This document shows, piece after piece, positions 1,330 through 53,905 of a stretch of DNA of 64,000 nucleotides. The notes beneath the pieces were generated by a model. The model worked only from the letters and a program-made list of their open reading frames with translations. It was not told the DNA's origin and did no database searches. Position numbers and translations under genes: made by a program. The number at the start of each line of letters is the position of its first letter. The stretch's first letter is position 1. The stretch is from a virus. Location of the stretch: the IMG/VR virus record IMGVR_UViG_3300043436_000583, positions 1 through 64,000 of that record. One strand, 5' to 3'.

Positions 1330-4300
1330 TTATATTTGTTCTACAATTGGTTCAATTGTTTCAGCTGGTTCAGCTGGTTCAGTTGTTTCAGTTGGCTCAA
1401 TTGGTTTTAATGGTTCCACTATTACCTTACCATTTTCATCTGTTATATCTGTATCCATAATAAATTCGTCTTTTCTTTCACCTATTACCATCCAAGATAT
1501 TTCATCTGTTGAATTTGCATTTTGACTTTCTATGTAAATAATATTACCAATAACCTTTCCTTTGACTAAATCCCAACCACTTTCATTTGTTGTAAAACAT
1601 TGTACTTCTCTACATAATGCTTCAAATGTTCCATCAGTCATAGTAGATATTTCGTCTATATTAGCTTGAGCTTTACCGTTTACTAAGGTAAGTTTGCCTC
1701 TATAAATCAAATCTGCTTGAGGTGATTCAACACTAGTATGACGTAAATTATGTGTTTCTTTTAAATTTGAAAGGGGATGTGGAATTAAAAATGATTTTGA
1801 AGAAGCAGAGAAAGCACCTGCTACAACCACATTACCATTGTTAGCAATTGTCATTCTAGCACCAAAACCATCAGCATTGAAACTATAATATATAGTTCCT
1901 GCTGTAGCACCTGCTGAGCTTTGCCAACTAAATTTACCATTACCTGCATTGTAATCACTTGTTCCATATCCTGAAGTTCCCCATTGTATATTTCCTACAA
2001 AACCACTTGAACCTAAAATAAGTGTACCGTATGTTGTTGTATTTCCACTAGAGTCAATTTTTACTTTATCTGTACCTGCTATAGAAAGGTATATTTCTGA
2101 ACCGCCTATTGCTATTGGCTGATAAGACCCAAAAAAAGTATTATTTACACCGAATATAGTGCTTCTACCTGAACTAAAAGTTCCTCCATTATCTATTCTA
2201 ACTCCGTAAGCAGTTCCACCAAAAGCTGCTGAAGTACCATTTGCACTATTATATACTTGAAATTTTTGGCTTGGGCTGACACCAACACCAAACTGACCTG
2301 ATGAATTTATTCTTGCAGCCTCAACGAGAGTTTGTCTTGTACTACCTGAGCCTACTGATGGAGCTGTTGAAAATATAATATTAGATGTAGCACCATTACC
2401 TGTTCCTAAACCTGCACTTATATAAACAGCTCCACCTTCATTATTAGTACCTGTTGTAGAATCTGCACCTTTTAAAGTTAATGCAGGAGCACTACCTAAT
2501 GTACTTTGGTTCATACCAATAGTAGTAGCTGTATCCCCACCAAATGATAATCTAAAACTTGGAGCTGTTGTTCCAATTCCAATTAAACCATTACCTTGGA
2601 TTCTCATTATAGTGCTAGTAGTATGAGCACTATTATAAAACGAATGGAAATCCATATAAGTATATGGACTTGTAAATGACATTCCAATAGCACCTACTAC
2701 ATTACCACTATCGTGCCAAATAATATTTTTCTTGTAGTTTGCACTTCCACCCCAAGATGGCATCTCCATCTTAATATAGTTAACATCAGCACTAGTTGAT
2801 GGATAATATATACTTAAAGGAGAAGTTGCATTAGTTGTTCCAATACCAACATTCCCTGCAGTAGTTATTCTCATTCTTTCTACAGCTGTATTTAATGAAC
2901 TACCAGCAGTTCCAACAGGAGCAGTATAAAAAGTTAAATCACCACCAACTCCTGTTCCTGTACCTTGTCCTCCCTGTATTCTAAATTCAGCACCAGCTAT
3001 GTTTGTTCCACTACCATCTGTACCTTCTATTATTGCAGTTTGTGGGGTAGCTGATGACTGACCATTACCAATGAAAAGACTTGTACCATCATCATAAATT
3101 AAGCCATTACCAATTGTATTTGTTCCAGTAAATTTAGCGTGATAACCACTTGTACCACTACCACCAATACCACTATAAGCTCCTACTGAATAAGAGTAAG
3201 CATAAACTACTACTATATCATTTAATTGACAAGCTGTTGCTAATATTATACTTGTACCATTGGTTGCAGTATATTCTGATTGAGCTAGATTAGAACCATT
3301 ATAAAACACATCTATTAATCCTTGTGTATATGTTACTGTGAATGTTGTCTGAGCAGCTGTGGCTGTGAAGGTTGTTATTGTTCTTAGTGCATTGGTTGGT
3401 AAGAATGCAGTGAGGTAGTTATCAATTTCAACAATATTACCAGCAGCCAAAGGAGCTGTCATAACTACTGTTGTACCATCTGTTGCTGTATAATCTACAC
3501 CATTTACAAACTTAACACCATTCACAAATACATCTATCATTCCAAGGTTGTAACCATTGGTTACAGTGAATGTTGTTTGACTTGCTGTGGCAGTAAAAAC
3601 TTCAACACTTCTTGCTGAAGAGCTTGCAAATCCAGAAGATCCAGAAGACCCTGAAGATCCACTTGTTCCACTTGTACCTGATGATCCTGCAGTTCCTGTT
3701 CCACCTGCTGTTCCTGAAGAACCAGATGTTCCTGTTGCTCCACTTGAACCACTTGTTGCACTGGTACCACTTGATCCAGATGTGCCTGATGTAGCAGAAG
3801 TTCCAGATGAACCATCACTACCTGCTGTACCTGACGTACCTGCAGTGGCTGATGTTCCACTAGATCCAGAGGTGCCACTTGTTCCACTTGTTGCAGATGT
3901 GCCACTAGACCCATCTGTACCACTAGTTCCTGATGTTCCACTACTTGCTGATGTACCACTTGATGCTGATGTACCAGAACTTCCAGAAGTTCCACTAGAT
4001 CCATCAGTTCCAGACGAGCCATCTGTACCACTTGTTCCACTTGATGCAGAAGTTCCACTAGATGCAGATGTTCCACTGCTTCCAGAGGTTCCACTTGATC
4101 CATCAGTGCCAGATGAACCATCAGTACCAGATGATCCATTAGTTCCACTTGTTGCACTAGAACCACTAGAGCCACTTGTACCACTAGACCCATCCCCTCC
4201 ACTCGCACCATCTAAGTTAACAGACCAAGCAGAATAAGTTCCACTACCCACTGTTCTAGTTGGTGCTGCGAATGATAAAGAACCTGTTGCTGGATTATAA

Positions 4301-5925
4301 GCTGTAACCTCACACTCTTGGAAGTTATTAGCGTCATAAACCACAATGATAGATTGAGCTACTGTATATGCTAATTGAGTACCTACAGTTATTGTTCCTG
4401 CATTACCCAATGTAAATGTTGTTGTTGATGTTGTGGCATATCTGTCACCTGAAAGACCTGCTGTTCCACTAGATCCTGAAGTTCCACTTGATCCATCTGT
4501 ACCAGCTGTACCAGACGATCCACTTGTTCCAGAGCTAGCTGATGTTCCTGATGATCCATCAGTACCAGTAGTTCCACTCGTACCACTTGATGCACTTGTT
4601 CCAGAAGAACCATCTGTTCCACTAGTGCCACTAGAGGCTGATGTTCCTGAAGAGCCAGCTGTTCCATTTGTACCACTTGTTCCAGATGATCCGTCTGTAC
4701 CTGAACTACCATCAGTGCCACTAGAGCCATCTGTTCCAGATGTACCACTAGTTCCTGAAGAAGCACTTGTACCACTAGTTGCTGATGTACCTGAGCTACC
4801 ACTAGTTGCAGATGTTCCACTAGAACCTGATGTTCCAGAAGAAGCTGATGTACCAGATGAACCATCAGTTCCACTAGATCCACTTGATCCACTAGATGCT
4901 GAGGTTCCACTTGACCCACTTGTACCTGATCCACCAGATGTTCCAGAAGAGCCAGATGTACCAGCATCTCCTGATGTTCCACTTGACGCAGAGGTTCCAC
5001 TAGTTCCTGAAGAACCAGCAGTTCCAGATGAGCCAGATGTTCCACTAGAGCCACTAGCCCCTGCTGAGCTTTTAAGTAGGGCTACAGAGGGGCTAATTTT
5101 TATGTATACAGGAAGTATTCCTGTTAAAGGTTGTATGTCTGTTAAGTTTCCAGGTGCTGCTGGATCGAAGTATAATATATCTCCAACACTACCAACAGTG
5201 ATGTTTAAATCATTCACTATTCTTCCTAAAGGTCTAACTCTTAGATTTCCTTGTTCTGGTGTATTAACAGATGTCACTATACCAGCAATGCTCATTAAAT
5301 CATTTTCTGTAGTTCCTGTTACTTTGACAAACTGCCCACTAGAATTTATCTTAACAAAGTCTCCTTCATTGAAGGCTGCGTAAATAGTTGAATTAATGTC
5401 TAAAGAAAAGAAGTCTGTAAGATAGTTTCTGAAGCGAAATCTACCAGTGATGTCATTGAACCAGTTGGTTAAATCTCCTATTTGAGATCTAATCTGTTCT
5501 GTTGGTGTGATGATGGGAAGACCATCCAAGCCTATATTAAAGAACAATCCTGTAAAACCTTCCACAGGAAAGTTATTACCCATTCCTGAGTTGTCTGTAA
5601 CAAGATTGTAAAGATCAACATCCTCAATAACAATAGTGCATGATGTCCCTGCTGGGTTTACGCTTGTTATAGATTGAATTCTATAAGCGTAACCATTAGG
5701 AAGACCAAACCACATTCCTGCTACTAAGTTGCTAGCATTATAAAGAAGTTGGGGGGTTGTATCGTAAGAGCTGGTTTCTTGGGGTAGTACTGTAAGAGTA
5801 CAAGTAAAAATAAATGGAGAGCCATCCCAAGGGGACAACGCATTACTATACGTAGAAGTTGTGCTTGTAGACCCAAAGTTGATACTTGCAGGAATACAAA
5901 TTGGTGGGGTTATTAAACTCGCCAT
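1330..5925 (-). CDS. Giant collagen-like tail fibre protein
   Basis: 1,531 residues. An N-terminal domain of ~290 residues, with no homologue I recognise, is followed by two long Gly-X-Y tracts of the GSSGTSG type (about nt 5060-4450 and 4200-3640). Between them sits an ~85-residue beta domain starting GDRYATTSTTTFTLG (residues ~492-575). Then come repeated TATQTTFTVT-type strands and fibre repeats (NVGIGTT, LIGIGTTAPS). The C-terminal ~150 residues differ from S74: a motif SFLIPHPL, then ADLIYRGKLTLVNGKA, seen in other phage tail proteins, and last a Pro-Glu-Thr-rich tail. The collagen-like parts presumably form triple helices and the protein is a long trimeric host-contact fibre. The high-scoring antisense frames across the Gly tracts are compositional shadows. 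Confidence 0.85.
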   Translation of the reverse strand: MASLITPPICIPASINFGSTSTTSTYSNALSPWDGSPFIFTCTLTVLPQETSSYDTTPQLLYNASNLVAGMWFGLPNGYAYRIQSITSVNPAGTSCTIVIEDVDLYNLVTDNSGMGNNFPVEGFTGLFFNIGLDGLPIITPTEQIRSQIGDLTNWFNDITGRFRFRNYLTDFFSLDINSTIYAAFNEGDFVKINSSGQFVKVTGTTENDLMSIAGIVTSVNTPEQGNLRVRPLGRIVNDLNITVGSVGDILYFDPAAPGNLTDIQPLTGILPVYIKISPSVALLKSSAGASGSSGTSGSSGTAGSSGTSGTSASSGTSGDAGTSGSSGTSGGSGTSGSSGTSASSGSSGSSGTDGSSGTSASSGTSGSSGTSATSGSSGTSATSGTSASSGTSGTSGTDGSSGTDGSSGTDGSSGTSGTNGTAGSSGTSASSGTSGTDGSSGTSASSGTSGTTGTDGSSGTSASSGTSGSSGTAGTDGSSGTSGSSGTAGLSGDRYATTSTTTFTLGNAGTITVGTQLAYTVAQSIIVVYDANNFQECEVTAYNPATGSLSFAAPTRTVGSGTYSAWSVNLDGASGGDGSSGTSGSSGSSATSGTNGSSGTDGSSGTDGSSGTSGSSGTSASSGTSASSGTSGTDGSSGTDGSSGTSGSSGTSASSGTSASSGTSGTSGTDGSSGTSATSGTSGTSGSSGTSATAGTSGTAGSDGSSGTSATSGTSGSSGTSATSGSSGATGTSGSSGTAGGTGTAGSSGTSGTSGSSGSSGSSGFASSSARSVEVFTATASQTTFTVTNGYNLGMIDVFVNGVKFVNGVDYTATDGTTVVMTAPLAAGNIVEIDNYLTAFLPTNALRTITTFTATAAQTTFTVTYTQGLIDVFYNGSNLAQSEYTATNGTSIILATACQLNDIVVVYAYSYSVGAYSGIGGSGTSGYHAKFTGTNTIGNGLIYDDGTSLFIGNGQSSATPQTAIIEGTDGSGTNIAGAEFRIQGGQGTGTGVGGDLTFYTAPVGTAGSSLNTAVERMRITTAGNVGIGTTNATSPLSIYYPSTSADVNYIKMEMPSWGGSANYKKNIIWHDSGNVVGAIGMSFTSPYTYMDFHSFYNSAHTTSTIMRIQGNGLIGIGTTAPSFRLSFGGDTATTIGMNQSTLGSAPALTLKGADSTTGTNNEGGAVYISAGLGTGNGATSNIIFSTAPSVGSGSTRQTLVEAARINSSGQFGVGVSPSQKFQVYNSANGTSAAFGGTAYGVRIDNGGTFSSGRSTIFGVNNTFFGSYQPIAIGGSEIYLSIAGTDKVKIDSSGNTTTYGTLILGSSGFVGNIQWGTSGYGTSDYNAGNGKFSWQSSAGATAGTIYYSFNADGFGARMTIANNGNVVVAGAFSASSKSFLIPHPLSNLKETHNLRHTSVESPQADLIYRGKLTLVNGKAQANIDEISTMTDGTFEALCREVQCFTTNESGWDLVKGKVIGNIIYIESQNANSTDEISWMVIGERKDEFIMDTDITDENGKVIVEPLKPIEPTETTEPAEPAETIEPIVEQI

Positions 5926-39432: not shown

Positions 39433-40682
39433 TATAAATACTGTTTGAATATATTTGTTATTCCTTCATCATAATCAATTAGGAATCCTGTAACTTCTGC
39501 TTTAGACATTGTGTGACCATTCTTATCATCCCATAGACTCTTAGCATTTGAGAATGCTGGGATCTGGTAAAATTTAATACCATTGAAATCATGACTCACT
39601 TCATGGTGTTTGTCTCCTGTAAATATATAGAACTTATCATGGTAAGACCACCCTGCTCTATATTCTATTGGAAACAATGCAGCAAGCTTTGCAGGTTTAA
39701 TAGCATCTCCATGATTAAACATCAATGCTGATTGACCATAGCTTACATACTTTCTATACTTAGGAGAACAATCAAATGTTACTCTCTCTGTATTTCTAAA
39801 GTAAGTTTGTAACCAATTAACCATATGCCATCCTACAAACTCATCATGATTACCTGCTACATATACTACCTTCACTTCATGACCATACTGTAATAACATT
39901 GTAATCATTAAGATCTCATGTCCACAGATATACTCAAAAGAAGTATGATATGTGTGAGTGTTTGTTTGAGGAGTTCCTTTTGTAGTCATACCAGTGTATT
40001 CACTATTGAACTCATCAGACCCAATGATATATGTAATTTGTTCTAAGTTGTTTGAAAGCTGAGCTTGGTTAGCTATCAACTCCACCTTGTACATGATATG
40101 AGCTAGTCTATTAGTAACATCATTGTTACCATCTATGTCATATTTGTTCAAGTGAGAGTCTTGTTTGTTGATGACTAACATACCTTTTGGTTTGTCAAAG
40201 TCAACTTTAGGACTCATAACCTCTTGACTTACAGGCTTATATGAAGCTAAAAAGTCTACAAACGCATCTTGAAAAACTTGTTCTGTAGACTTCTTCCCTA
40301 ACCAGGCTTTGACTTGCCAATGTGGATTCCCACCATTTCCCCAGTAGTTCTGTACGTACTTGGTGATTTCCCATTTGTCTGTGTCAATCTTACACTTTAC
40401 TATGAGCTCATCTAAGCTCTTAATTTCATCTTTTGTATTGAAGACAATCTCTCCTGTTCCTTTAGCAATATCCTCTTCAAATCTTACTATTGTTTCCTCT
40501 AGCTCAGAAACATAGTTACCTACCTCTGCCACTTCTTCAACAAGTTCTCTATTTCTTAACTCTATTAACAACTCATCAACCTCTGATTCTGTAATTCCAA
40601 GCTTGTCAGCGTAGAACTTTTTACTCTTTTTCCAATGTAGGATTTCTTCTAGCTGGTTTAGTAATGCTTGATTCTCAGGCAT
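39432..40682 (-). CDS. Calcineurin-like metallophosphoesterase with N-terminal helix-turn-helix
   Basis: 416 residues. All five metal-site blocks of the family are present in order: D175-S-H177, GSDEFN, GNHD at 277-280, NHGD, and GDKHH. This points to a two-metal nuclease or phosphatase; Mre11/SbcD-like exonucleases and phage 2',3'-phosphodiesterases belong to the same fold. The first ~60 residues (KSKKFYADKLGITESEVDELLIELRNRELVEE) read as a winged helix-turn-helix, suggesting DNA or RNA binding. It heads a transcription unit: a promoter match lies 29 bp upstream and a terminator of the previous unit lies further up. A late-transcribed enzyme in the tail cluster may be packaged or may act in DNA processing during assembly. 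Confidence 0.85.
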   Translation of the reverse strand: MPENQALLNQLEEILHWKKSKKFYADKLGITESEVDELLIELRNRELVEEVAEVGNYVSELEETIVRFEEDIAKGTGEIVFNTKDEIKSLDELIVKCKIDTDKWEITKYVQNYWGNGGNPHWQVKAWLGKKSTEQVFQDAFVDFLASYKPVSQEVMSPKVDFDKPKGMLVINKQDSHLNKYDIDGNNDVTNRLAHIMYKVELIANQAQLSNNLEQITYIIGSDEFNSEYTGMTTKGTPQTNTHTYHTSFEYICGHEILMITMLLQYGHEVKVVYVAGNHDEFVGWHMVNWLQTYFRNTERVTFDCSPKYRKYVSYGQSALMFNHGDAIKPAKLAALFPIEYRAGWSYHDKFYIFTGDKHHEVSHDFNGIKFYQIPAFSNAKSLWDDKNGHTMSKAEVTGFLIDYDEGITNIFKQYL

Positions 40683-40710
40683 ATGTAGTTTATTTTGGTT
40701 AAAATTATTG

Positions 40711-40742
40711 TAAAGATAGGAACTATTTCTGAATTTCCCAAA
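40711..40742 (-). promoter_or_regulatory. Bacteroidota-type promoter of phosphoesterase/tail unit
   Basis: Minus strand TTTG (40739-40742), 20-bp spacer, TATCTTTA (40711-40718), one mismatch from TAnnTTTG. The leader to the ATG at 40682 would be about 22-25 nt and is A-rich without a Shine-Dalgarno. It lies just after the terminator at 40792-40825, which supports a new transcription start here. Confidence 0.65.
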
Positions 40743-40769
40743 AATAAACTAACTATTTTGGTTATATGG

Positions 40770-40787
40770 AATAACTTTTTTAGTTAT
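40770..40787. promoter_or_regulatory. 17-bp palindrome copy 2 (ATAACT-N5-AGTTAT)
   Basis: The core ATAACT-TTTTT-AGTTAT (40771-40787) lies about 28 bp upstream of the -33 element of the phosphoesterase promoter. A degenerate relative, TAACTATTTTGGTTAT, sits between it and the promoter. It matches copies at 26298-26314 and 60425-60441, so operator function is plausible. Confidence 0.5.
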
Positions 40788-40791
40788 AGTT

Positions 40792-40825
40792 AAAACAAAA
40801 ACTCCCAGGGTAGAAACCCCAGGAG
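40792..40825 (-). terminator. Intrinsic terminator after the adhesin cluster
   Basis: As minus-strand RNA, CUCCUGGGG pairs fully with CCCUGGGAG (two G-U pairs) around a UUUCUA loop and is followed by UUUUUGUUUU. On the plus strand those two positions would be mismatches, so the structure belongs to minus transcripts. A second small stem (CCTGT/ACAGG, 40831-40850) precedes it. Confidence 0.85.
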
Positions 40826-40865
40826 AACTTCCTGTAAACCAACAAACAGGATTTTTAAAATTGTA

Positions 40866-41932: not shown

Positions 41933-43483
41933 TTATAATGAACAAGCTCCATTACAAGTTGTGGCAGATGGAAGAGTAAGTAATACTGCAGGACTACCTG
42001 GACTAGTTGATTGTGTTATTTGATAAACGAATCCACTAAAGCTTGCATCTGCATAGAATCTATTTATTATAACAGAAGTTCCAGTTGGAAACGCAACTAA
42101 TACATTTGTACTTGTTATATTACAACCTGAACAATTATATTCATCTGCTAAATAATAATCATAATTTGGATTTGCTGTGGTAGATGTTGTAGTTGTAGTG
42201 GGACCAGGAGCACTAAAAGATCTTGACTTACTTAATCCTCCAAAAGTATAAGCTGTTGGAATAGATACTGTTGTCCAAGTTAACCAGTTAGTTGTAGTAG
42301 TTATTTGAGCACTGTCTATATATGTTATCAATGCATAAGTTCCATCTGAGTTAACAAATACTCCTCCTGGTGTTTGTCCTATTCCTGGAACTGGTAAATT
42401 AGTATTAAAATAATCAGCAAAATCAGAACCATAATTTGTAGAGTAGCGAAATTGATTTAATGTATTATTAGTATTGATTAATGCTACTAGCATGTATTGT
42501 CCATCCTGAGACATATCACAATACAAAGCTCTAAAGTCCTCATTATAATGCTTTTCAATAAATGATCCACCATAGTTAGAAGATGTATATATCCTTCCTT
42601 CTCCATTTACGTTACCTGTACCAAATGAAGATTGTTGTGATAATAATTGATATTGTCCTGAAGTATTTATGGCTACATCTGTCCAGTAACTGTTAGCAAA
42701 ATTATTAACACTAAATGATGCTCCATAATTAGAAGACTTAAATATTCTAGATCCCCAAGCAAAGCTTCCAGTTTGTAAGTTTCCAATAGCTGTAACATAT
42801 ATACCATCTCCAGAACATGCTATTTTTGGATAAGGAAGTTGTGTTAGTTGACCAAAACCAGTAACAGGAAAATAGTAAATATTAGTCCAAGTAACTCCAT
42901 AATCAGATGATTTGCATATAGTAAATGCTGAGGCACTAAATGCAACTATATACATATATTGCCCACTATCTGAAACACATGTTCCAGGCATATCATAAAC
43001 TGAACCTGGTGTTAATGACATTGTACATGAACGTGAAACAAATGTCACCCCATAATCACTTGATACTTTTATATCATTAGTTTGTGTACCTGATAATACG
43101 TATTGTCCTGCACCACTTCTAGAAACACTATATCCAGCAGAAATAGGATTTGACCATGTTGAACCTAAGTCATTTGAATATATTACAGTTCCATATGTTG
43201 GTGCACCTGGTGGAGTGTAAGGATTTGTATCATCAATTGCATATATTCTATTAGAATATGAAAGAGGTTGCAAATCATTTTTAACAACTAATTGATTAGC
43301 AGATTTACTAGAAAAGCTTGGATAGGAAGTATCTATGGCAACATAAGATGATGCCTCAGTTTTAGTTATTTGTTTTTGACTTACAGGAATAGTGGAAAGA
43401 GGAATAAATACACCAGTAGTTACTCCATCCTGAAGATTATTACAAGAAACTGTTTGATTACTTGCTATACCTGACCAACTCAT
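41933..43483 (-). CDS. Asp-box beta-propeller surface protein (sialidase-like fold)
   Basis: 516 residues. After an N-terminal docking-type segment, repeats of the Asp-box form S-x-D-x-G-x-T-W recur: SNDLGSTW, SSDYGVTF, SSDYGVTW, SSNYGASF, SSNYGGSF, STNYGSDF. Such repeats mark the turns of beta-propeller blades in sialidases and related proteins. The Arg triad and other catalytic residues of sialidases were not recognised, so binding to glycans is more likely than cleavage. A Thr/Ser run then joins a C-terminal Cys domain starting PNYDYYLADEY. The start overlaps the stop of the collagen-like fibre gene by one base. A host-receptor-binding role at the tail or head surface is the best reading. 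Confidence 0.75.
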   Translation of the reverse strand: MSWSGIASNQTVSCNNLQDGVTTGVFIPLSTIPVSQKQITKTEASSYVAIDTSYPSFSSKSANQLVVKNDLQPLSYSNRIYAIDDTNPYTPPGAPTYGTVIYSNDLGSTWSNPISAGYSVSRSGAGQYVLSGTQTNDIKVSSDYGVTFVSRSCTMSLTPGSVYDMPGTCVSDSGQYMYIVAFSASAFTICKSSDYGVTWTNIYYFPVTGFGQLTQLPYPKIACSGDGIYVTAIGNLQTGSFAWGSRIFKSSNYGASFSVNNFANSYWTDVAINTSGQYQLLSQQSSFGTGNVNGEGRIYTSSNYGGSFIEKHYNEDFRALYCDMSQDGQYMLVALINTNNTLNQFRYSTNYGSDFADYFNTNLPVPGIGQTPGGVFVNSDGTYALITYIDSAQITTTTNWLTWTTVSIPTAYTFGGLSKSRSFSAPGPTTTTTSTTANPNYDYYLADEYNCSGCNITSTNVLVAFPTGTSVIINRFYADASFSGFVYQITQSTSPGSPAVLLTLPSATTCNGACSL

Positions 43484-45165
43484 TATTTATTTAATTTAGC
43501 TTCTAACTCAGCAATACGTTTTTCTAGTTGAGCAATCTTCCAACTATGTACTTGTGTATAATCCACTACTAAGAAACCATCTTGTTTTTCTTCTACAGCA
43601 TCAGGTAATACATTCTGTACTTCTTGAGCAATATATCCCCAATGAGTTTTATTATCTCTTTCTTCATCTTTCCAAGTGAATGCTACAGTTTCTACATTGT
43701 TTGATGGAATAGCTGTAATTATATCTTTAAGTCTTAAGTCAGAGTTTTGGAAGAAAGAATCTGCATATATTGAACTACCACTTACAAACACACTTGAGTT
43801 TGTAAATCCAGAGTTTGCGTTAGTACATATAACTATTGCTCCTGCAGTTGCTGGAGAGATAGTTGTAAATCCAGGACCTGTTGGGCCAGTAGGGCCAGTT
43901 GGACCTATAGGACCAGGGCCACCAGGAGTACCTGGACTACCTGTTGGTCCAGGACCACCAGGAGTACCTGCTGGACCTGTTGGGCCTGGATTACCTGTAA
44001 GTCCTGTTGGACCTATACCTCCTGTTGGGCCTGTAGGACCAGTAGGTCCAGCAGCTCCACTAGTTCCACTAGAACCATTGCTACCAGGGCTACCAGGAGT
44101 TCCACTACCACCAGAAGTACCACTTGTACCTGTACTAGTTCCACTAGAAGCAGATGTACCTGCACTAGCTGATGTACCAGCTGTAGCTGAAGAACCTGAG
44201 GTTCCATTAGTACCAGCTGTGCCAGCTGTTCCTGATGAACCAGAACTTGCAGATGTTCCTGATGAAGCACTAGATCCACTAGTTCCTGCAGTTGCAGATG
44301 TACCTGATGAACCAGAGGTACCACTTGATCCGTTACCACCAGCAGCTCCAAATAAGTTTACAGTCCAAACTGCATATGTTCCTGAACCTGTTGTTGATGC
44401 TACATTAACAACCATAACACCTGTAAGGCTATCATAGCTTGTAACAGAACCTTGCATTGTATTAGATACATCATATGTCAAAAGCACTGTCTGAACAATA
44501 CTATAAGCTAATCCTGTATCAATAGTTAAAGTTTGAGTTCCAGTTCCTATTGTTAAAGATGTGACAGAAGATGATAGATATCTATCTCCATCTATACCAG
44601 CTGTACCTGATGTACCTGCTGGTCCTATTGAACCTGATGTACCAGACGTACCCATTGTACCATCTGCAGCAGATGTTCCTGAACTTCCTGAACTTCCAGA
44701 AAGACCAGAAGAAGCAGATGTACCAGCAGTTCCAGAAAGACCAGCAGAACCTGATGTACCATTAGAACCTTCTCTACCAGAACTTCCAGAGGTTCCACTA
44801 GAACCAGTTTCACCACTTGTGCCAGATGAACCAGCAGCACCACTAGCACCTGAGCTACCTGAAGTGCCAGATGAACCACCAGGTCCTGTAGCACCTGAAC
44901 TACCAGATGTTCCAGAGCTTCCTGTTATACCACTAGAACCAGAAGTTCCAGAAGTACCATTAATACCAACAACACCATTACAAAGAGCATCATCTATTTT
45001 TGATAGAGCACAGTCTAAGTTATCTCCAGTGTGAATTCCTGAACAAGGAAGGTTGGGTCCATTATATATAACATGAGCTGCTGTAGTTTCACAAAGAAGT
45101 GAACCACAGTTTTGACTAGGTTGATAATATGCGTTGTAACAAGGATCTCCAGGATTGCAAGCCAT
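43483..45165 (-). CDS. Collagen-like fibre with S74 chaperone domain
   Basis: 560 residues. Residues ~27-62 ([23 protein letters not shown]) are the shared N-terminal docking module. GSSGTSG-type repeats, an ~85-residue beta domain from ~188 to ~272 ([15 protein letters not shown]) and further repeats follow. The third tract is true collagen-like ([20 protein letters not shown]). The end is an S74 intramolecular chaperone: SDLRLKDII, then [17 protein letters not shown] and [25 protein letters not shown] coiled coil. The family trimerises fibres and self-cleaves. Together these make a trimeric host-contact fibre with a removable chaperone. Confidence 0.85.
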
Positions 45166-49231: not shown

Positions 49232-50193
49232 ATTGCAGCTATTTTTTTACCTTTCAATTTACCTTCTAAAATTAATAATTGGTCTTGGTTATCTTCATCT
49301 GCTAAGAACTTCACTAAATCATCTTCATCTTTAGCTATTTCAAACTCACCTTCATAAATCTTACCATTAGGTTTAGCTCTATATACTGAGTGAGCAACAG
49401 CTTGTTTAACCAAGTCTTTAATATGGAGTAAGTTTTCTTTCATATCTGCAAATCTGTTGAATACCTCAATTGGATTCAAACCTTGATATCTGCCATTCTT
49501 GAATTCAGTTTGTTTCAATAGGTTATCCACCTGATTGTAAACTGCTTCTTCTTTGGAATCATCTGACACTGGAAGACCAAGTAGACGAGCCACTTTCTTC
49601 TTCTTCTCAGGAGTCATACTATCAAACTTGACAATTGCTTTGTTGATAAGTTGTTTCTTCTTAAACATTACCTTGTTCTCAATATCATCATCAGCAACAT
49701 AGTACTGAACATCAGCAGGGAATTCACCTCTCTCCCAAGCTTGGTAGCTAGAAGCAATTGTTGGATGAACTCTTAACCATGAGAATGCTAATTCTTGTAA
49801 TGGTAATGTAAAGTCAAAATAGTTATCACCATCTAGTAACTTTACTGGTTGAACGTGCAAAGAATCATCAACAGAAGTTGATAAGCCATAGTTCCAGAAT
49901 TGAGAACGAGGACTTAAGTCAGCATTTAAAGCTGCTTGAAGTTTATCTCTTAACTCTGTTACTCTTTCAATCTCCATCTCCTTTTCTAAAGGATCTTGGA
50001 TTCTTTTGATGTAACTAGCGTTAGGATCTAAGCCTGTTCTATACTGACCATCTAATTCTTTGTAAGGATATTTAAAAACTCCTGTACCAGGAATTCTTGT
50101 GTATCCTCTTGCTGCAAGTCCACCTTGCATCGTTTGCAATTGCGAGTTGTTGTACTCTTTCTTAATAGTAGAGATTTTTCCTATCTTACCCAT
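49228..50193 (-). CDS. Protein downstream of capsid gene (auxiliary head protein candidate)
   Basis: 321 residues, charged and mainly helical. The first part (KISTIKKEYNNSQLQTMQGGL, GYTRIPGTGVFKYPYKE) is basic. The middle has LSPRSQFWNYGLSTSVDDSLHVQPVK and a block PEKKKKVARLLGLP. A gene of this type follows the major capsid gene in crAss-like phages, so an auxiliary or vertex role is plausible. It is preceded by a 192-bp non-coding stretch full of stem-loops, then an A-rich leader. It ends in an ATGA overlap with the next gene. Confidence 0.55.
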   Translation of the reverse strand: MGKIGKISTIKKEYNNSQLQTMQGGLAARGYTRIPGTGVFKYPYKELDGQYRTGLDPNASYIKRIQDPLEKEMEIERVTELRDKLQAALNADLSPRSQFWNYGLSTSVDDSLHVQPVKLLDGDNYFDFTLPLQELAFSWLRVHPTIASSYQAWERGEFPADVQYYVADDDIENKVMFKKKQLINKAIVKFDSMTPEKKKKVARLLGLPVSDDSKEEAVYNQVDNLLKQTEFKNGRYQGLNPIEVFNRFADMKENLLHIKDLVKQAVAHSVYRAKPNGKIYEGEFEIAKDEDDLVKFLADEDNQDQLLILEGKLKGKKIAAI

Positions 50194-50221
50194 AATGTAG
50201 TTGTTTTGTTTGGTTTATTTG

Positions 50222-50373
50222 CAGATGGTTCCCATCGAAGGGAACACTGTACAGCATTTACTTGTACATGTCCATCTGTGATTTAGAAGACTCCCCCACT
50301 GGGAGAGTGGGGGGAATGTCTTCTTAGTTTTTTGCGAAACACCATTGGTGTCAGTCTAAGGATACTATCCTTA
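50222..50373. ncRNA. Structured intergenic RNA: three-way junction plus hairpins
   Basis: Between capsid gene and next gene. (a) 50222-50278: closing stem CAGATG/CATCTG encloses two hairpins, GTTCCC/GGGAAC (loop ATCGAA) and TGTACA/TGTACA (9-nt loop), a three-way junction. (b) 50285-50324: ~16-bp hairpin AGAAGAC-TCCCCCACT / AGTGGGGGGA-AT-GTCTTCT. (c) 50339-50351: ACACC/GGTGT. (d) 50357-50373: TAAGGAT/ATCCTTA. On the plus strand (b) is followed by TAGTTTTTTG, so an independent plus-strand RNA ending there is possible. On the minus strand the whole set would lie in the capsid mRNA. No ORF fits. Role unknown. Confidence 0.6.
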
Positions 50374-50385
50374 AAGGGGCATTTA

Positions 50386-53256: not shown

Positions 53257-53285
53257 ATGTAGTTGTATTTATTTGGTTTTCAATG

Positions 53286-53374: not shown

Positions 53375-53905
53375 CTAATCTAATTTGTTAGTAAAATTGT
53401 CATTTATAAGTCTAAAGCTTCTGATTGGAGCCAAGTCAGTAAGGGTAACTTGTTGAACCTCAACTCCCCACTTCCTAGCTTCCACCCTAACCTTCTTTGT
53501 CAAAGTGTTGTCAAGTTCTGAATCTGTACATTCATCCATTGTCATAGACATAATGACATTTTTGATGATGCTTTGAGACATATCTGACAGAGCATCCTGG
53601 GCATCAAATACCTCAAGAAGAAATATCTTGACATCAGCTATCTTATATTTAATGACTCCTTTCACTACAATGTTCTGCTTGTCTTTAGTATATAAAGATT
53701 GGGCATCTAAACTGAGAGTTGTGACAACCACATGTTGGTCAATCACTTCATCAAATAGAGGCATCTTGAAATGTATTCCAGGTTTGAGTACTCTTTTAAA
53801 GATACCAAACCTGAGTAATACTGCTTCTTCATAGTCTCTAATAATGATAGCTGGTGTGAGTTGTAACCACCAATTGGTGATTATCTCTATCAGTTTATCA
53901 AACAT
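53375..53905 (-). CDS. SPFH / band-7 domain protein
   Basis: 176 residues. The segment AIIIRDYEEAVLLRFGIFKRVLKPGIHFKMPLFDEV (residues ~18-53, shown in part as LKPGIHFKMPLFD) is a clear SPFH/band-7 start, followed by LDAQSLYTKDKQNIVVKGVIKYKI and the conserved EARKWGVEV/TLTDLAP ending. Family members (stomatin, prohibitin, HflK/HflC) form oligomers on membranes, and HflKC controls the FtsH protease. The N-terminal 15 residues are hydrophobic and amphipathic with two Trp and could be the membrane anchor. It sits between portal and scaffold, 2 bp after the portal stop, so it is expressed with head genes. A host-membrane or protease-modulating role, or a structural use of the fold, are open options. 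Confidence 0.85.
   Translation of the reverse strand: MFDKLIEIITNWWLQLTPAIIIRDYEEAVLLRFGIFKRVLKPGIHFKMPLFDEVIDQHVVVTTLSLDAQSLYTKDKQNIVVKGVIKYKIADVKIFLLEVFDAQDALSDMSQSIIKNVIMSMTMDECTDSELDNTLTKKVRVEARKWGVEVQQVTLTDLAPIRSFRLINDNFTNKLD

Follow-up and report, generated by a model that had tools for sequence, protein, structure and literature searches.

The window that we analyzed comprises 64,000 nucleotides (positions 1 to 64,000) of a 115,851-bp virus record, IMGVR_UViG_3300043436_000583. Positions 50194-50385 form a 192-bp gap between the major capsid protein gene on one side and the next late gene on the other, both on the minus strand (Table 1). The capsid protein matched the Pfam family Crass_capsid (PF23898; 94.5 bits against a cut-off of 27) and also phrog_11589, a major head protein. 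Portal (phrog_6547) and terminase (phrog_6681) genes lie upstream of the capsid gene in the same direction, as in the capsid operon layout of Crassvirales. The capsid family and this gene order therefore point to a crAss-like phage, probably of the order Crassvirales to judge by the capsid, portal and terminase matches, and the likeness to that order suggests hosts among the Bacteroidota. A tblastn search with the capsid protein retrieved only one named phage, at 26% identity, and its 64-nt gap has no structure of the kind described below. No DNA similarity to named phages was found for the capsid gene and the next gene, and a Pfam search with the 321-aa product of the latter gave no match. 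A protein with an SPFH/Band 7 domain is encoded between the portal and capsid genes (53375-53905, minus strand), an unusual neighbor for head genes. Also on the minus strand are a reading frame with a collagen-like translation rich in SGTSG/GPTGP (43483-45165) and one with a Pfam Collagen match (1330-5925).

Along the capsid-sense strand, the capsid stop codon is followed by two small hairpins, a long hairpin, a 6-nt spacer, a three-way junction, a single C, an A-rich leader and the ATG of the next gene, which lies 28 nt from the end of the junction. The initial annotation of this DNA had described a compact three-way junction and perfect or near-perfect stems within 50222-50373, and the junction and all of these stems are present. 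The long hairpin is near-perfect rather than perfect because its 16 bp on the plus strand enclose a 3-nt bulge and its 15 bp on the minus strand an internal loop. The T6 that was said to follow the 16-bp hairpin on the plus strand is likewise there, at 50328-50333. Folding of the 152 nt gave -55.7 kcal/mol for the minus strand (z -5.01; none of 200 shuffles equally good) and -56.6 kcal/mol for the plus strand (z -4.18; 1 of 200), and among 421 tiles of this length an equally good fold was reached by only 2 on the minus strand and by 1 on the plus strand.

Table 1. Features of the capsid gene gap and its flanks, in capsid-sense order.
Feature	Position	Strand	Remark
Major capsid protein gene, 517 aa	50386..51939	-	Upstream of the element, late operon
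Small hairpin behind capsid stop	50357..50373	-	Variable; by eye, relatives often have a hairpin of other sequence here
Second small hairpin	50339..50351	-	By eye, present in a minority of relatives
Long GC-rich hairpin	50285..50324	-	15 bp with internal loop; proposed 3'-end protector of capsid mRNA
Single-stranded spacer, 6 nt	50279..50284	-	Between hairpin and tRNA-like element; 3' tail after the putative cut
tRNA-like three-way junction	50222..50278	-	R1 covariance model, covariation
P1 ("acceptor")	50272-50278 with 50222-50228	-	7 bp
P2 arm	50245-50271	-	In place of the D and anticodon arms
P3 ("T arm")	50240-50244 with 50229-50233	-	6-nt loop 50234-50239
T-loop-like hexaloop UUCGAU of P3	50234..50239	-	Most frequent loop of the family
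C at discriminator position (N73)	50221..50221	-	C in 91/107 distinct elements
A-rich leader AACCAA..ACTACAT of next gene	50194..50220	-	Motif also before ATGs at 40680 and 53254
Next late gene, 321 aa	49228..50193	-	phrog_16383

The leader motif, AACCAA-N-ACTACAT, precedes three starts on the minus strand (40683-40700, 50195-50215 and 53257-53278), where 0.09 occurrences would be expected by chance. Its absence from those element-less loci that were read first suggested that it was part of the element. Because two other genes of the same phage carry it, it is not specific to the element, and it is perhaps a translation start signal of this phage group.

Relatives were collected by capsid-protein searches. 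These comprised the best 80 close loci, one MAG contig and the best 80 loci around that contig, the best 80 loci obtained via a distant three-protein alignment, and further sets, one of them again a best 80, with many repeats. From 206 loci we obtained 151 distinct gap strings, a few of which were truncated because a gene start had been misjudged. Visual comparison showed the same layout recurring among these gaps while the sequence varied. The loci are related and partly identical, so that the counts given here are not independent events.

Since a MAFFT alignment of whole gaps was too gappy, we used an alignment of 74 distinct elements (A2), selected by a parse that required P1, P3 and a U-rich loop start. 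In A2, 92.0% of 1545 cells were paired, a value that for P1 and P3, as for the first loop letters, is partly circular because the parse demanded them. Of P2 the parse demanded only a length, and there 86.9% of cells were paired, with double changes at 10 of 10 pairs. Compensatory changes occurred in all three stems of the junction and double changes at 19 of its 21 pairs. The cells with double changes numbered 314, compared to a mean of 86.9 in shuffles (none of 500 as high) and 44-104 when the partners were slid. Nucleotides outside the stems were conserved too, such as the GC before P3. The long hairpin was aligned from 32 distinct relatives (A3), hand-picked for similar length from the 80 hairpins found, of which 70 were listed. 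All 456 cells (100%) were paired, double changes were present at 11 of 15 pairs, and the 89 double-change cells compare to 29.6 in shuffles, with those of the outer helix inflated by a one-base register shift; further pair types were fewer than in shuffles. The initial annotation had named a lack of covariation in relatives as grounds for refutation, and covariation was found in junction and hairpin alike.

A long hairpin of at least 12 bp was present in 119 of 123 distinct gaps, and the spacer between it and the junction measured 3-7 nt in 99 of the 123. For this count and for the count of distances in 107 elements given below, loci misplaced on the long hairpin or on coding sequence were dropped by judgement. 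Nineteen names were dropped from both counts and four more, which had no parse, from the distance count; several of the dropped loci carry the element according to the covariance model described next. In two loci (L074 and L075), extra inserts separate the long hairpin from the junction, and the short spacer is thus not absolute.

We made a covariance model, R1, from A2. It matched 50222..50278 with 76.3 bits, the sole good match in the window and in the whole 115,851-bp record, near-identical sequences being among those that built the model. At E up to 0.01, R1 found 81 of 100 loci in one set and 92 of 94 in another, with one match in each, always on the capsid-sense strand and, by the coordinates of the capsid match, downstream of the capsid ORF. 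In total, 173 of 194 loci have a single copy at this site; the loci are related, in some cases identical, and include 74 sequences used for the model. The 19 misses among the 100 consisted of eight loci without the element (L132-L136, L165, L172 and L177) and of loci with a diverged or other element by parse or by eye (L083, L103, L137, L138, L140, L144, L150-L152, L154 and L163). One of these, L083 (JACIXZ010000023.1), is a crAss-like contig filed under a Tissierellales MAG, possibly through a binning error; its tRNA-like element is diverged. In a search of 23 whole records, 19 had one match with E<1e-5 at the site, and the remaining matches had E values of 0.02 to 1.

The strand was assessed from wobble pairs in the junction. 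G-U occupied 70 cells in 16 of 21 columns, compared to 29 cells in 7 of 21 columns for C-A, the combination that reads as G-U on the opposite strand. This bias marks the minus strand, that of the capsid mRNA, as the functional one by sequence criteria. We regard it as practically certain that the locus encodes a conserved, structured RNA in the capsid sense. The initial annotation had offered two readings, and the covariation and sense-strand bias favor its minus-strand one, an RNA behind the capsid ORF that could stabilize or process that mRNA.

The initial annotation made no mention of the likeness of the junction to a tRNA. The T loop of a tRNA reads UUCRANY, its T stem adjoins the acceptor's 3' strand, and the T loop is 12 nt from the end of the acceptor strand, or 13 nt when the acceptor has 8 bp. 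An acceptor of 7 bp is usual, with 8 bp in tRNA-His and tRNA-Sec (PMC11143913). In the phage element, P1 (6-9 bp) resembles an acceptor stem, and P3, whose loop is of the UUCR type, resembles a T arm and directly abuts the 3' strand of P1. With a parse blind to the loop letters, the four commonest loops were UUCGAU, UUCGGU, UUUGAU and UUCAAU, together 63 of 129 distinct best parses. A strict test of the T-arm-plus-acceptor pattern (UUYRA, P3 of at least 3 bp, P1 of at least 6 bp, 11-13 nt) within 180 nt behind the capsid stop was positive in 113 of 162 distinct post-capsid stretches, compared to 12 of 1620 shuffles, 3 of 162 antisense stretches and 27 of 972 stretches from other parts of the loci. 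By eye, the 49 failures mostly had A58 replaced (UUCGGU, UUCAGU, UUCGCU etc.) in junctions that were normal in other respects, lay beyond 180 nt or came from element-less loci.

Among 107 distinct elements, the distance from the end of the T loop to the end of P1 was 12 nt in 54, 13 nt in 39, 11 nt in 11, 10 nt in 2 and 14 nt in 1. The stacked length was therefore 12-13 nt in 93 of the 107 despite a P1 of 6-9 bp, close to the approximately 12 bp of a tRNA. The lengths of P1 and P3 compensated each other (sd 0.72 compared to 1.27 when dealt at random), an effect that is partly built in, since both lengths are taken from one strand and P1 is capped at 9 bp. The loop conformed to UUYRA in 80 of 107 elements and had 6 nt in 101 and 7 nt in 6, A58 not being universal. 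The first pair was C-G in 79 and G-C in 5 of the 107, and the C that usually follows P1 was itself followed, by eye, mostly by AAA or UAA. As a rule, the elements lack the G at +1 and the 3' RCCA of a canonical bacterial RNase P substrate.

P2 was the most variable arm. It was very short in L213, L237 and L211 (the minimum-energy fold of L237 being another structure), was reduced to an insert of 12-15 nt in some relatives, and in L144, where the loop is UUCAAAU, was replaced by a 13-nt linker. A contact between D loop and T loop through a conserved bulged G in P2 was also considered and was dropped, as covariation, judged by eye, did not support it. At the other extreme, ARAGORN reported in L163 (4646-4716) a cloverleaf pseudo-tRNA with a 6-nt anticodon loop and an unassigned anticodon. 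It stands in the element's place, with the usual CAAAT and leader directly after it and the long hairpin about 60 nt upstream. The Rfam tRNA model did not report this cloverleaf at E up to 5, so the case for its tRNA ancestry is one of shape and of a D-arm side that seems to resemble that of tRNA-Glu. Across eight loci, the Rfam tRNA model matched only two genes, both tRNA-Met(CAT)-like, directly behind the junction and without an encoded CCA (L068:4720-4791 and L075:4728-4802). Inserts beginning with ACTACAT-ATGGG were seen between element and gene in L040, L046, L057, L058, L078, L183, L189, L192 and L217. The one in L046 (4723-5031) encodes 102 aa with an HNH-like CVDCGN..LEFDH motif and had no Pfam match. 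Taken together, the loop sequence, stacked length and stem arrangement indicate that the junction probably mimics the T-arm/acceptor half of a tRNA.

Some relatives lack the element. Four of them, with 89-91% capsid identity (L165, L172, L177 and L204), have a hairpin with a U-rich tail instead, and the element is thus not essential. The gaps of a more distant group (L132-L135 and L294) contain just a hairpin that ends in a U-rich tail. L136 has another hairpin. In the gap behind the window's capsid gene, no intrinsic terminator was found in the capsid sense, and the tail of the long hairpin on that strand reads AAATCA. Sense terminator-like sites were present in 9 of 10 element-less gaps, which were hand-listed from the parse and represent about four lineages, compared to 14 of 156 other distinct gaps from loci with at least 70% capsid identity, which were not individually checked for the element. 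Of 10 named phages, crAss001, DAC17 and cr118_1 carry, by our criterion, a terminator-like hairpin in this position, cr4_1, cr53_1, cr130_1 and cr7_1 have a hairpin there without enough U, and FpV4, cr1_1 and Lbo-JY46 have neither. By these counts element and sense terminator appear largely mutually exclusive, from which we infer that the element may do the job of a terminator by another route.

We propose that the junction is a phage t-element, that is, a site at which the transcript is processed by host RNase P and/or RNase Z, with a probability of about 0.5. The proposal draws on the structure with its strand and conserved place, the 12-13-nt stack, the T-loop-like sequence, the hairpin with its spacer and the scarcity of sense terminators. 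A single polycistronic late mRNA would carry the junction behind the capsid gene and so offer the acceptor-stem/T-arm half of a tRNA to the host enzymes. RNase P would cleave at the junction's 5' edge (about 50279/50278), and RNase Z perhaps at its 3' edge (about 50221/50220). After the 5' cut, the long hairpin, 6 nt upstream, would protect the capsid mRNA at its 3' end; across relatives the cut would leave a hairpin with a tail of 3-7 nt in the 99 of 123 distinct gaps noted above. The 3' cut would let the downstream genes begin with a clean A-rich leader. Capsid mRNA could in this way build up separately from its operon neighbors, and cleavage here would be a possible counterpart of the terminator-like hairpin in relatives without the element.

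Minimal RNase P substrates commonly carry a 3' RCCA and G at +1, and neither is the rule in the phage family. Model hairpins and EGS hairpins made of the acceptor stem, T stem and T loop suffice for cleavage by RNase P, which in bacteria is guided by the G at +1 and whose known targets include some phage RNAs and mRNAs (PMC11143913). Against a t-element stand the C-G first pair, the missing RCCA, the imperfect T loop, the dispensability of the element and the distance of the long hairpin from it in L163, L074 and L075. ARAGORN found no tRNA in the window, and no cloverleaf with an anticodon arm was detected there; Rfam reported no tRNA in the window either, and its tRNA model missed even L163.

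The hairpin and junction might also remain uncut and passively block exonucleases from both sides, stabilizing the 3' end of the capsid message and the 5' end of the downstream one. The strong conserved hairpin close behind the capsid ORF would suit this, as would the post-capsid hairpins without a tRNA-like element in crAss001, DAC17 and five cr phages. However, it leaves unexplained the UUCR-type loop, the near-constant 12-13 nt and the cloverleaf of L163, and we consider it unlikely. Somewhat unlikelier still, in our estimate, is control of translation of the 321-aa gene through a protein of phage or host origin, such as a head protein or a tRNA-binding host protein, that binds the fold. 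The junction lies 28 nt from the ATG, and nucleotides besides the stems are kept, such as the GC before P3. In some relatives, however, inserted tRNAs or HNH-like ORFs separate the junction from the gene, so that their spacing is not kept, and the adjoining leader motif is common to other genes.

The compact junction with its conserved nucleotides between P2 and P3 could instead belong to a self-cleaving ribozyme or another catalytic or ligand-binding RNA, and ribozymes have been reported next to phage tRNAs (PMC10879173). No Rfam family reached its gathering cut-off in the 64-kb window. The gap searched at E up to 10 gave two chance-level matches alone, one preQ1-like and one snoRNA-like. No ribozyme or riboswitch reached threshold, and the weak preQ1 match fell far below its cut-off. 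Such an RNA would need P2 for part of its core, yet some relatives keep no more than a 12-15-nt insert in its place, and we consider this reading improbable. The L163 pseudo-tRNA and the neighboring tRNAs suggest that tRNA genes do enter this slot, and the element could be the decaying, functionless remnant of one; yet the compensatory changes of all three stems, together with a single copy at a constant site in 173 of 194 loci, make this very improbable. The plus-strand reading of the initial annotation, a small noncoding RNA with its own terminator antisense to the late operon, took up the 16-bp hairpin and T6 in the window. However, a U-rich 8-mer on the antisense side occurred in 20 of 123 distinct gaps and terminator-like sites on the antisense strand in 43 of 156. 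Because the T-run is thus not general, a terminated antisense RNA is unsupported; the wobble pairs favor the minus strand, and a promoter-like match on the plus strand (50169-50196) belongs to a set of 14 found in 5 kb, compared to 17.5 in shuffles. This reading is hardly credible.

The proposed t-element resembles a natural system. The t-elements of plant mitochondria are tRNA-like, non-decoding structures at mRNA ends that RNase P and RNase Z recognize and cut, thereby defining those ends (PMC11658184). They are homologous to tRNA genes, which invites comparison with L163; they are organellar and keep a typical tRNA-like secondary structure (PMC11658184). In contrast, the phage element mostly comprises the T-arm/acceptor half plus one variable arm, stands in a late operon and is a putative processing site. 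Some natural phage RNAs other than tRNAs are processed by the host tRNA machinery. M3 RNA, C4 antisense RNA and the T4 gene 32 mRNA are non-tRNA substrates of RNase P listed in PMC11143913, C4 being RF01695 (PMC2864571). These differ from the present element in genes and structures, and the window had no Rfam match at threshold.

In mitochondria, tRNA-shaped units part the messages of one long polycistronic transcript; here each phage would have a single degenerate unit, located after the capsid gene. T7 has a terminator behind gene 10. The terminator-like hairpin of crAss001 and DAC17 occupies the same position as the element and could likewise set the capsid mRNA apart, but it is of the U-tailed terminator type and has no tRNA-like part. 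The phi29 packaging RNA has a three-way junction at another place in its genome and is, to our knowledge, not known for a T-arm/acceptor half. The initial annotation had claimed no link to it, in keeping with the absence of any Rfam family at gathering score in the window.

In the main texts of the open-access journal literature searched, no paper joined crAss-like phages and tRNA-like structures. Searches on structured RNA in crAss phages and on late transcription in crAss-like phages yielded nothing on such an element. The same was true, among the matches listed, of searches on phage tRNA-like RNAs, RNase P, mRNA processing or punctuation, and on phage noncoding RNA discovery. In two surveys of structured RNAs, the word "capsid" does not occur in the main text. 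Processing sites of tRNA-like form are known in principle, and their use behind a phage capsid gene appears to be new.

A conserved tRNA-like processing site, if real, would explain for one clade how crAss-like phages make much capsid protein from long late operons and would carry tRNA punctuation from organelles to phages. More tentatively, as a possibility held at less than even odds, a clade of crAss-like phages may have swapped its capsid terminator for a degenerate tRNA cut by both RNase P and RNase Z; the released RNA of about 57 nt would possibly be CCA-tailed and act further. The RNA family captured by R1 is outside Rfam and directly testable, and the natural series from a full cloverleaf to a minimal T-arm/acceptor hairpin should be useful for defining what RNase P and RNase Z require. 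Elsewhere in the late operon, a terminator-like hairpin with a U-run was seen by eye at about 40795-40830 on the minus strand, within the 183-bp gap 40683-40865; the shared leader comes next, and this is maybe a second 3'-end site.
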